Of a stretch of 64,000 nucleotides of DNA, positions 11,450 to 33,283 are shown piece by piece. Position numbers and translations under genes: made by a program. This DNA is from Collinsella sp. AK_207A (GTDB lineage Bacteria; Actinomycetota; Coriobacteriia; Coriobacteriales; Coriobacteriaceae). The notes under the pieces are model-generated. The model ran no database searches. It had not been told where the DNA came from and was given only the letters and a program-made list of their open reading frames with translations. The stretch is taken from assembly GCF_902501965.1 (NCBI RefSeq), contig NZ_CABWID010000010.1:186001-250000 (forward strand), read 5' to 3'. Position 1 is the stretch's first letter. Each line of letters opens with the position of its first letter.

Positions 11450-13324
11450 CTACAGCAGCGGAAGGGTTCCGAGCACCGAGAACGCCACGGCCGAGAGCAC
11501 CACGGCGACGAACGTCAGAGCCGTGCCCGACGTGGGTAGATCGTGCTCGTCGCGCCAATTCAAAACCCGCAGGTACACCGCGGAAGTTGCGTAGGTCGCC
11601 ACGATGACCCCGCTCGCCGCGAGGAAGCAGTTGTGGAAGGCCTTGGCCGCCCACGGCTCGGCCTCGGCAAAGAGGTTGCCGCCCACGAGCTCGCCGCAGA
11701 GCATCACCACGCCGCCCAGCACCACGCCGATGAGCGTGGTCTTGGCAAAGAAGGCCAGGTAGGGATGCTGCTCATCCTCGTGGTCGTCCTGCTCCAAGAA
11801 GCTGCGCTTCACGAACGACGTCATGCGCATGGCCGCGAGCAGCACGATCGGCATGATCGCGACGGGCATGAGCGAGCGAAGCGCCCATGAGGTGATATAG
11901 TCGGCCACTCCTATTGCAGCGTTCACACTGTCGGCCTTGGGGACCACGAGCGCCGCGATCGCGCAGGCCGCGATCGCCCACACCAGGATCCAATACTGGC
12001 GCTGCGCGAACCACATGAGCGCATGCGTGCTCTCGCCCGTGGTGTTCTCGCCTGCGGAGACGCCGGCGATCTGCAGGTCCTCGGCGTGCTCCTCGGTCAT
12101 GACGTCCATGGCGTCATCTACGGTGACGATGCCCAGGATATGCTTGGTCTCGTCGCACACGGGGATAGCGGCCAGGTTGTACTTGGCCATCTCCTCGGCC
12201 ACTTCCTCCTGGTCCAGATCGGGGGCGACCCACACCACGTCCTTGTAGGCCAGATCGCGCAGGCGATCGGTCTTCTCGGCCACGATGATGGAGCGCAGCG
12301 ACAGCACGCCCGTGAGGGCACCGGCCGGATCGAGCGTGTAGACGTAGTAGACGCTCTCGAAGTCCTCGTCCAGCTTGCGGATGGCTTCCACCGCATCGGC
12401 CACGGTATCGGTTGCCGGCAGGGCAACGAACTCCGAGGTCATGATACGACCGGCGGTGTCTTCCTCGTAGCCCAGCAGGTTTCGAATCGCACGCTCGTCC
12501 GCCACGCCCATCAGGCGCAGGAGCTTCTCGGCCTTCTCGCTGCCGAGCTCGTCGATGATCTCAGCGGCGTCGTCCGGGTCCATGAGGGCAAGCATCGAGG
12601 ATGCGTCGCGATCGGACATGCCCTCGAGCATCTCGGAACGCAGGTCCTCGTCATCGAACTCCGAGATGGCCTCGGCGGCCTGCGCGGTATCGAGCTGCGC
12701 GAACACCTGACTGCGGAGGCGTGGGTCCAGTTTCTCGATGATGTCGGCGATGTCCGCCGGGTGCAGTTCGTCGAGCGTCTTGTGCGAGACGGAGAGCTTG
12801 ATCTGCTTGGTGCTGCGCTCCAGCAGGTCCATGTAGCTCCACGCGATGATATCCTCGGGGAGCGGTTTGCCGATTGCCTTCGCCATGCGGGCCACCGCGT
12901 GCTCCAGCGAGGGATGAATGGCCCGCAGCAGGCCGCGTGCACCCACCTCGGCGCCCAGCATGCGTAGCTGGTTCTCCACGCTGCTCGAGAACTTGATGTC
13001 GTTAACGCGCACGACCTTCAGGCCCTGCGTGTCGACGATCTGCTTGTTCATGATGTCGCGCGAAAGCAGCACCTCGTCGGGCTGCAGATAGGAGAAGCGA
13101 ATGTCCGTTGCGGGACACTTGAGGTAGACACCGTCGTCGTCAAAGCGCTCCACATACTTGCGCCAGCTGATCATGAAAGGCGTCTTGCCCGGCCCCTGGA
13201 AGGCCAGCGACGTGACGTGCGGGAAAATCTCACCCGTCGCAATGCCGAGGTCGTTGACCACGCCGATTTTTTCACCCGTCGAGTCGACAACGGGTAGTCG
13301 AAGCATTTCGGAAAAGTAGTTCAT
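11450..13324 (-). CDS. MgtE-N/CBS-domain membrane protein, probable Mg transport partner
   Basis: 624 residues. Residues about 1-170 hold two PRC-barrel-like segments; about 185-290 an MgtE N-type helical repeat (LHPADIADIIEKLDP, MDPDDAAEIIDELGSEK); about 305-425 a CBS pair (GRIMTSEFVALPATDTVADAV, IPVCDETKHILGIVTVDD); about 450-620 four or five membrane helices. In MgtE the N and CBS domains bind Mg and gate the pore, but this membrane part is not clearly the MgtE pore. The NRAMP-like gene follows 12 bases later, so the protein may sense Mg and gate or assist that transporter (inference). ATG at 13324 has SD GAAGGAG, which lies inside a stable hairpin. Confidence 0.85.
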   Translation of the reverse strand: MNYFSEMLRLPVVDSTGEKIGVVNDLGIATGEIFPHVTSLAFQGPGKTPFMISWRKYVERFDDDGVYLKCPATDIRFSYLQPDEVLLSRDIMNKQIVDTQGLKVVRVNDIKFSSSVENQLRMLGAEVGARGLLRAIHPSLEHAVARMAKAIGKPLPEDIIAWSYMDLLERSTKQIKLSVSHKTLDELHPADIADIIEKLDPRLRSQVFAQLDTAQAAEAISEFDDEDLRSEMLEGMSDRDASSMLALMDPDDAAEIIDELGSEKAEKLLRLMGVADERAIRNLLGYEEDTAGRIMTSEFVALPATDTVADAVEAIRKLDEDFESVYYVYTLDPAGALTGVLSLRSIIVAEKTDRLRDLAYKDVVWVAPDLDQEEVAEEMAKYNLAAIPVCDETKHILGIVTVDDAMDVMTEEHAEDLQIAGVSAGENTTGESTHALMWFAQRQYWILVWAIAACAIAALVVPKADSVNAAIGVADYITSWALRSLMPVAIMPIVLLAAMRMTSFVKRSFLEQDDHEDEQHPYLAFFAKTTLIGVVLGGVVMLCGELVGGNLFAEAEPWAAKAFHNCFLAASGVIVATYATSAVYLRVLNWRDEHDLPTSGTALTFVAVVLSAVAFSVLGTLPLL

Positions 13325-13652: not shown

Positions 13653-13858
13653 GATACTTTATCGGTTATTGGACAAAGAAATGAAAGCGACCCGATACTT
13701 TATCGGTTTCCGCGCGACCATCCGGTAGCCATCCTGCCAGTTCAAATAAAACCCCTGTTCACCGCAATGTCTCATTTTTCTCTATTCGAGACGACCCCTG
13801 AAAACCGATAAAGTATCGGCCTGCTTTTTGCCACAGCATCCAAAAGCGATAAACTATC
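13653..13858. repeat. Four-arm palindromic repeat element, copy A
   Basis: Four copies of the near-palindrome GATACTTTATC are centred at 13658, 13699, 13812 and 13853. The first two read forward, the last two in the opposite orientation (GATAAAGTATC, GATAAACTATC). Centre spacing is 41 bp within each pair and 113 bp between pairs. Most copies extend to CCGATACTTTATCGG followed by T-rich bases. The middle holds a small hairpin (GTCTC/GAGAC, about 13769-13792). The last copy contains the TAG stop of the DUF559-like gene. Together with 13497-13652, where I see no gene, it fills the gap between two coding regions. Confidence 0.8.
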
Positions 13859-15050
13859 GCCTCTTTTTTCGGCCGCGTTCAAACAACTGCTCATGAAAGC
13901 ACTCGCGACGCTCTAGAAATGCCGAAGTTCGAGCCCGTATCCCCATCCCGAGCACCCGCGACAGTGCTTGCACGCGCGCATCCCATTGTTCCAGATCGGC
14001 CATTTGGCTGTAAGTGATATCAAAGACGGTAAGCCCCATGTTCTCGAGTGCCGCCGTTCTACCTGATTTGACGAGGAAGCCCTGACGATCGGCATGGTAT
14101 CCAAAACCGTTGATCTCGACATCAATGCCTGACTCAAGCCACAGCTGATCGCATATCGCATAACTCGTGTTAGTCAGCCGCTTTGCCGCCGGCGTATAGT
14201 CCACGCGTCGATTAACCCAGGGTACCTTCCAGCCCTCACCTCCCTTCCAGCAATCAGCGCACATCAGCAACAACGCCCGCGATTCCAAAGGAGAGCCTGA
14301 TCCATTGATAGCCAGATCAACGGCCTCCAATAGCTTTCGGCTACCCCGGGCGCCACTTTTGCTCAACGCGTAGGCGCGCACCTCATCGACCTCCGTCAGC
14401 GGCGCCCTCTTCCAAAGGTCCGTGGGGAGCCCATTTCTGTCAAACGACAGCTCCCAAGGAATTCCTCCGCCGCCTCGCCCCAGCGGAGCCACACGGGTGC
14501 CCCTCGCATCGTAGTACTCGCGAAGATGATTCCGTCGCGCCCGCTGAACAGCCTCATCGACAACCCCCTGTGCCAACAGCGCGTTCAAAACAAACGATGC
14601 AGCAGGCGTTTCATTCCAAATTGCAAACAACCCCGCCGCTTCCATAATGAACAACGCCAGGGAGACGACATTCATTCCACGTGCAAGTGAAAGCAGGGTG
14701 GCGTGGGGAGACAAGACCTTGAGTCCCCCGCCAAGCGGAACAAGATCGGAACTCTCGAGCCAATCAACCTGTTTGTGCGGCCAAGACAGCGCCGTCGGAG
14801 TACGACTCAGAGCCGCGTCGGCCATAACATGAACCGGAGTATCGACCGCCTTGAGATCGATAAGTAGCCGCCCTGCAACAAGCGCATCGAGCTCGCGCGC
14901 ATTGCCACGGTCACAGCGAAGCTCAGGTCTAAGCCCAGCACCGTTGGGGTGCGGTGCAAATGCAATCCCCTCTGGCAAATCAACCTCTCCAATAACGGGC
15001 GGAGTCGTCCAGTACTGCCAGGCTGAGATTCCGGTTATGACGGGGTCCAT
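13854..15050 (-). CDS. DUF559/Vsr-like nuclease-fold protein with AbiEi-like N-terminal region
   Basis: 398 residues. The C-terminal third resembles DUF559 PD-(D/E)XK proteins: an early Glu (PLESRALLL), then LWLESGIDVEINGFGYHAD with Asp-X-Glu and a conserved YH, then a GLTVFDITYSQM strand. The N-terminal part resembles the AbiEi/restriction-like proteins seen beside DUF559 domains (LKVLSPHATLLSLARG). The family is common in actinobacteria and usually annotated as hypothetical. ATG at 15050 has SD AGGAGG. The gene is visibly AT-richer than its neighbours, lies alone between repeats and unrelated genes, and its stop codon lies in a repeat arm; recent transfer is likely. A role in DNA cleavage or defence is inferred from fold only. 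Confidence 0.65.
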   Translation of the reverse strand: MDPVITGISAWQYWTTPPVIGEVDLPEGIAFAPHPNGAGLRPELRCDRGNARELDALVAGRLLIDLKAVDTPVHVMADAALSRTPTALSWPHKQVDWLESSDLVPLGGGLKVLSPHATLLSLARGMNVVSLALFIMEAAGLFAIWNETPAASFVLNALLAQGVVDEAVQRARRNHLREYYDARGTRVAPLGRGGGGIPWELSFDRNGLPTDLWKRAPLTEVDEVRAYALSKSGARGSRKLLEAVDLAINGSGSPLESRALLLMCADCWKGGEGWKVPWVNRRVDYTPAAKRLTNTSYAICDQLWLESGIDVEINGFGYHADRQGFLVKSGRTAALENMGLTVFDITYSQMADLEQWDARVQALSRVLGMGIRARTSAFLERRECFHEQLFERGRKKRR

Positions 15051-22590: not shown

Positions 22591-22805
22591 GATACTTTAT
22601 CGGTTTGAGGGCTTCGCAAACAAACCGGGACGATACTTTATCGCTTTTCGGGTACCCGCTCGGTAAGGCGCAGAAAGGGCGACTCGTTTTCGCAGGTAAC
22701 GCGATTACGAGTCACCTTTTTCTTGCAGGCTACATCATTGATGCGAAAAAACCGATAAAGTATCGCCGTGTTTTATGCTCCGTGCGCCAGAACCGATAAA
22801 GTATC
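22591..22805. repeat. Four-arm palindromic repeat element, copy B
   Basis: Copies of GATACTTTATC are centred at 22596 and 22637 (forward) and 22759 and 22800 (reverse), so both pairs again have 41-bp spacing; the pairs lie 122 bp apart. The middle differs in sequence from copy A but also holds a hairpin (GACTCGT at 22681-22687 with ACGAGTC at 22706-22712). On the minus strand the first unit met after echF (stop at 22815) could act as a weak terminator. No gene is seen between 22437 and 22814. Confidence 0.8.
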
Positions 22806-33147: not shown

Positions 33148-33283
33148 AAAACGCTAAAAATGAGAGTTTTGGGGGCCGGTGACGAGTAGCGGCCCTGCTG
33201 GCCGTGGCGCGACCTGGGGTTTCGTACGTGGCGGCGCGGGGGCTACTCGGCCGGGGGCCGCATAACTCTACGTTTCAGCGTTT
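33148..33283. repeat. Long imperfect inverted repeat in a 436-bp gap
   Basis: The arm at 33148-33190 (starting AAAACGCTAAAAATGAGAG) is matched in reverse complement by 33242-33283 (reverse complement starts AAACGCTGAAACGTAGAG), with both arms ending in GAGTAGC next to the 51-base loop. About three quarters of positions match. Such a structure could be a small mobile repeat or a stable transcript. The rest of 32979-33414 holds a palindrome at 33373 and no gene. Confidence 0.6.

Follow-up and report, generated by a model that had tools for sequence, protein, structure and literature searches.

Scattered palindromic elements and a neighbouring family of nuclease-like genes in Collinsella-type bacteria

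Short symmetric DNA elements scattered between the genes of Collinsella-type gut bacteria appear to belong to a family of nuclease-like genes, as each gene often sits next to or between copies of its own version of the element. The window analysed here is a stretch of 64,000 nucleotides of Collinsella sp. AK_207A (GCF_902501965.1, contig NZ_CABWID010000010.1, positions 186,001 to 250,000), and its genome is referred to as G000. The elements consist of inverted arms that are specific to a genome or class, 13–16 bp of unconserved sequence, a 62-bp core (GTAG-N22-ACCTG-N26-CTACT) that is shared across genera, and then the mirror image. Family genes found by homology, seed loci excluded, are flanked by inverted-repeat elements on both sides in 14 of 43 loci, compared to 3 of 495 control genes (p=3e-14). 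Literature searches revealed no description of this element or association among open-licence papers, and the arrangement looks like a previously undescribed partnership between a DNA-cutting-type enzyme and a genome-wide population of its own target sites, although its mechanism is inferred from sequence alone.

Four-arm elements in the window

An earlier note, made from the sequence of the window alone, described two four-arm palindromic elements with arms spaced 41 bp apart, close to four helix turns. This observation is confirmed, and coordinates and spacing are right. The window contains 8 matches to GATACTTTATC with at most 1 mismatch, where 0.19 are expected (0 of 100 shuffled sequences reach 8). 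Element A comprises an outer left arm (13653–13663, + strand), an inner left arm (13694–13704, +) at a distance of 41 bp, an inner right arm (13807–13817, − strand) and an outer right arm (13848–13858, −). In contrast to the four copies of one sequence stated in the note, the fourth arm is GATAGTTTATC, hence element A has three exact arms and one variant, the latter overlapping the stop codon of a nuclease-like gene (13854–15050, −). Element B comprises arms at 22591–22601 (+), 22632–22642 (+), 22754–22764 (−) and 22795–22805 (−).

Random spacing of the motif, or no other pairs at 41 bp, had been named in the note as the outcome that would refute it. A scan of the whole genome for two arms 41 bp apart returned 17 pairs, and none for the reversed-pattern control. 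These pairs make up nine four-arm elements, with arm offsets of 0/41/154/195 in six copies and of 0/41/163/204, 0/41/155/196 and 0/41/165/206 in the other three (B, E, H). The middle thus varies by about zero or one helix turn, the changes of +9 and +11 being about one turn. None of 44 other genomes of the genus and none of 22 others of the family has this arm pair with up to 2 mismatches. A lone arm at G000:C14:74110 is not part of an element. Searches of viral contigs returned single hits for the arm pair and for the core; the arm-pair hit is AT-rich and lacks the inverted pair, and is attributed to chance.

The sequence between the arms, which the note considered unconserved, is not wholly so, as a core with GTAG, CAGGTA and CTAC at fixed places lies between the inner arms. 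In element A a variant of the 62-bp core is located at 13724–13785, read on the − strand (core profile score 22.0, with no false positive in 400 kb of shuffled sequence). The core of element B (22662–22734, −) is one helix turn longer (GTAA...GCAGGTAA...CTAC on the + strand). A third element in the window belongs to another arm class, with a left arm AAAACGCTAAAAATGAGAGTTTT (33148–33170, +), a core that matches GTAG-N22-ACCTG-N26-CTACT exactly (33186–33247, +) and a right arm (33262–33283, −).

A wider family of elements in Coriobacteriia

In a relative (G025, about 75% amino-acid identity), the region upstream of the ortholog of window gene 11450–13324 contains a four-arm element with the same 41-bp doubling but a different arm, TTGTACCAGTTTT. 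G025 has about 21 such elements, nearly all with the same inner offset of 143. One of them (G025:C21:50886–51162) has a right-hand array of four arms at a 41-bp period with near-identical 41-bp units, suggesting that arms multiply by tandem duplication. Alignment of the G000 and G025 sets revealed the shared centre, namely GTAG, then ACCTGC, then CTACT at fixed distances. The pattern GTAG-N22-ACCTG-N26-CTACT matches exactly in 29 of 398 Coriobacteriia genomes, up to 19 times per genome and repeatedly in most of the element-bearing members of the window's family, with the reversed control at 0–1 there. In a scan of GTDB genomes, 80 of 82 matching stretches are from Coriobacteriia, with Pasteurella and Bradyrhizobium as probable chance hits. 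The organisms include Collinsella tanakaei, intestinalis, provencensis, massiliensis, stercoris and vaginalis, Enorma massiliensis, Olsenella, and an Eggerthellaceae MAG.

Most genomes carry one arm per side (20–44 bp), 13–16 bp from GTAG or CTAC. The 41-bp doubling is one lineage's variant, confirmed only in G000, G025 and a further genome, G044. Arms are uniform within a genome or fall into a few classes. In C. tanakaei ET10 (G042) and ET30 (G043), arm-to-arm spacing is exactly 108 bp in 50 of 57 pairs and 107–110 bp in the rest, and very few arms are unpaired. In eight G043 loci (L385, L386, L387, L396, L407, L411, L417, L420) another subfamily has arms CGCGAAGTGAGTGCTT, a core beginning with TATAC instead of GTAGAC, and arms further from the core; similar arms (CGAAGTGCGTA) flank family genes in the genomes G237, G313 and G322. 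In C. tanakaei genomes a second repeat, GGTTGGGGACGTGTTCC...GGAACACGTCCCCAACC, with its own inverted ends often lies directly beside the elements (right flanks at G043 loci L208–L210 and G042 locus L203), and at G042 locus L204 repeated palindromic stretches such as GACAAGATGGTGCCGGGTGCAAACTTGTC lie in tandem next to the element.

The earlier note also proposed that arms followed by T's may serve as weak terminators, which is not supported. Of 110 elements examined, 107 are intergenic, and neither a rule of gene orientation, an association with promoters nor a convincing recurrent neighbour gene other than the nuclease family was found. The core consensus from 106 sequences (about GTAGaCCGAAAAnsGGCAAcgCtTcTACCTGCGGgTTTgTT...CCGTCTACT) displays no covariation, and GTAG and CTAC are conserved without a conserved or covarying stem in the bases that follow. 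No element matched an Rfam covariance model, in the window or in 20 loci. In G025, arms are not hairpins but are conserved as sequence rather than as complements, and arms of one element are not clearly more alike than arms of different elements (only L2–R2, p=0.027). Although the arms are inverted repeats, some of them followed by T runs, their uniform sequence within a genome and a spacing constant to about 1 bp make transcribed RNA structures or bidirectional terminators very unlikely. The element is read here as a double-stranded DNA site, not an RNA. By contrast, the idea in the note that a protein reads the sites is well supported by the uniform arms, the rigid and helix-phased spacing, and a gene family flanked by the elements. 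Overall, the interpretation given in the note is partly supported; neither the conserved core nor the neighbouring gene was visible to its author.

Inheritance and replacement of elements

The sister genomes G042 and G043 were compared. In the three cases where orthologous flanks could be aligned, an element is present in both. At L206/L398 both arms change together from CGTTTACGGTTCGG to CGTTTAGAAGACGG, and at L198/L412 they differ by a few bases. At L207/L210 the G043 element is a near-copy of two other G043 elements, replacing the older class in place, as gene conversion predicts. Although resting on a few loci only, this data suggests that sites are largely inherited, while arm sequence drifts in concert and copies can overwrite each other.

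The suggestion in the note that the arms are ends of a tiny mobile unit is therefore only half right, as copies can spread (three near-identical copies in G043), but most sites that could be compared are inherited in place. Transposition of the elements by the neighbouring protein, in a copy-paste or cut-paste reaction that would make them miniature mobile elements with a domesticated single-copy enzyme, like REPIN-RAYT but with a Vsr-type enzyme, would be consistent with these copies, with the population of dispersed copies, and with genes flanked by two elements whose cores are 57 (genome G019), 51 (G050) and 50 (G060) of 62 identical. However, fillers are usually unrelated even where arms are identical, sites are conserved between species, no target-site duplication was seen on inspection of the flanks by eye, and Vsr-fold enzymes are not known to transpose DNA. 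Hence transposition remains possible but appears unlikely.

A gene family associated with the elements

The gene beside element A (398 aa, P0001; 13854–15050, −) matches no Pfam family on its own. Homologs lie next to elements in G025, G042, G019 and G138. A profile of seven members finds the family in 271 of 398 genomes, with several paralogs each. Conversely, loci found by homology were examined for elements. Over 50 loci, inverted-repeat elements occur on at least one side in 36 and on both sides in 16, compared to 120 and 3 of 495 control genes. Without the seven seed loci, elements or long inverted repeats occur on both sides in 14 of 43 loci (see above), and strict elements on both sides in 7 of 43 versus 0 of 495 (p=1e-8).

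The arm class beside the gene equals the class dispersed through the same genome in G000, G025, G042, G138, G050, G047 and G046 (16–31 identical bases, against typically 8–11 with other genomes), and by eye in G017 (loci L481 and L158), G019 (L467 and L216) and G245 (L443 and L176). In G000, a second paralog (C15:135431–136585, locus L464) is flanked by arms of the class of the third window element (33148–33283), and a third paralog (C15:31894–32994, locus L463) has a 14-bp inverted repeat (ATGTCAGTTAAGCC) in its 3′ flank, possibly a third arm class. However, of the nine class-GATACTTTATC elements in G000 only A lies beside the gene, and in G066, G060 and G019 (L437) the gene-flanking arms match none of the few dispersed elements in hand. 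The protein family also occurs in genomes without detected elements, such as the C. aerofaciens-like clade, where the best members have no flanking element.

Orthologs at the mgtE-like locus are only 43–49% identical between G000, G025 and G044, while the neighbouring MgtE-type protein is about 75% identical. The protein evolves fast, as its arms do. Across all pairs, correlation of protein and arm similarity is not significant (Mantel p=0.14), and only pairs above about 45% identity share arms clearly (mean arm score 12.5 versus 6.6).

A predicted Vsr-type nuclease domain

The C-terminal domain matches the I-Bth0305I catalytic domain by profile (PDB 3r3p, E=0.005), a homing endonuclease model of PADLOC (E=0.0033 in one member) and DUF559 in 3 of 7 members (best E=6e-4, below family cut-offs). 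Structure prediction of the full-length protein was poor (pLDDT 49), and only the C-terminal domain was usable (pLDDT 70). The model of this domain aligns to 3hrl (Z 6.7), 3r3p (6.4) and Vsr (5.0; 1cw0 and 1vsr, down to 4.9). These values are modest, but agree with the sequence evidence. E256, D301, E312, H319 and R331 are invariant in 50 of 50 members, which suggests an active nuclease, with cleavage inferred from residues of catalytic type.

As 10–75 chromosomal targets would be dangerous for a cutting enzyme, the nuclease-fold protein may instead be an architectural or regulatory DNA-binding protein, with the elements as chromosome-organising or looping sites. Rigid helix-phased geometry, intergenic placement without orientation preference, and inheritance of sites in place are in line with this view. 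Yet a pure binder would not need the invariant residues E256, D301, E312 and H319, and the near-identical copies in G043 point to copying. We consider this alternative unlikely, although it remains open.

ALTERNATIVES

The arm-core-arm anatomy recalls attP, which may suggest phage- or ICE-type attachment sites of a tyrosine recombinase. However, G025 (about 21 elements) and G017 contain only two PF00589 proteins, best explained as the universal XerC and XerD, which excludes a dedicated recombinase. The sites are symmetric and multi-copy with no integrase gene beside them, and this reading is very unlikely. A Y1/RAYT transposase is excluded as well, since no PF01797 (Y1_Tnp) match was found in G017, G019, G025 and G044, all of which carry elements.

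Interpretation

The data establish at the level of sequence an element family with class-specific inverted arms and a core common to all classes, its geometry, a paralogous protein family with a conserved nuclease domain whose genes lie next to or between such elements, and, in most testable genomes, a match between the arm class at the gene and the dispersed class. All that concerns binding, cutting and copying by gene conversion is inferred. With moderate confidence, we hypothesize that the four-arm element is one of a genome-wide population of cognate sites for the neighbouring Vsr-like protein. In this view, the N-terminal ~250 residues would read the arms, which set the specificity of each paralog, and the nuclease domains of a dimer or higher oligomer would meet at the common core (GTAG...ACCTGCGG...CTAC) in a phased, bent complex, with a second pair of protein units on the outer arms in the lineage with 41-bp doubling. 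The protein would nick or cut elements, probably rarely or under control, and repair from another copy would keep the arms uniform, replace old elements in place and occasionally seed new copies. Gene and sites would then drift together, much as a homing endonuclease drifts with its target or a RAYT with its REPINs. The conversion step is suggested by in-place replacement and concerted arm drift. An active nuclease with this many targets should be toxic unless it nicks or is restrained; Vsr itself nicks, and a nickase or tight control would explain tolerance of tens of targets.

More tentatively, the elements and genes may represent a new class of selfish or domesticated genetic system, in which Vsr-type homing nucleases keep, by break- or nick-driven gene conversion, a chromosome-wide population of their own symmetric targets, each paralog owning an arm class and all classes sharing one catalytic core site, so that protein specificity and tens of sites drift in concert.

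Relation to known systems

The arrangement resembles REPIN-RAYT systems (a literature search on which gave background only) in its dispersed intergenic palindromic elements, a gene next to or between copies of its own class, classes that differ between species, long persistence, and GTAG/CTAC tags, the latter by coincidence or convergence. However, the protein is Vsr-like instead of Y1, and the element is 110–210 bp long with arms outside a fixed core and double-strand helix-phased geometry, not a GTAG-tagged hairpin. EDxHD/Vsr-like homing endonucleases such as I-Bth0305I share the predicted catalytic-domain fold and, as inferred from sequence, the acidic/His residues, and I-Bth0305I dimerises on a target of nearly 60 bp (PMC3943268), comparable to the 62-bp core. 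Here, the gene does not interrupt its target or lie in an intron, as complete elements lie on one or both sides of it; tens of targets persist in the genome; and the N-terminal region is different and without assignment. DUF559/MTES_1575 Vsr-type hypothetical endonucleases share the C-terminal domain, but an association with an element population has, as far as we found, not been described. Like MITE-like repeats of other bacteria (Correia/NEMIS, ERIC), the elements are short and intergenic with inverted ends, but here the arms vary by class while the centre is conserved, the reverse of a MITE, and the cognate enzyme is nuclease-like.

If this reading is right, REPIN-RAYT is not the only way in which a bacterium carries a persistent population of tiny palindromes tied to one enzyme, as an unrelated nuclease superfamily has a similar arrangement. 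Dozens of paralog-arm pairs over one conserved core would provide a natural series of matched protein and DNA-site variants, useful for studying how DNA specificity evolves and how a genome tolerates many targets of its own nuclease. It would also give a plausible role to part of the DUF559/Vsr-like hypothetical proteins. Finally, elements lie at the very ends of contigs C10, C30 and C69 of the C. massiliensis genome G061, so these repeats seem to break short-read assemblies of Collinsella genomes.
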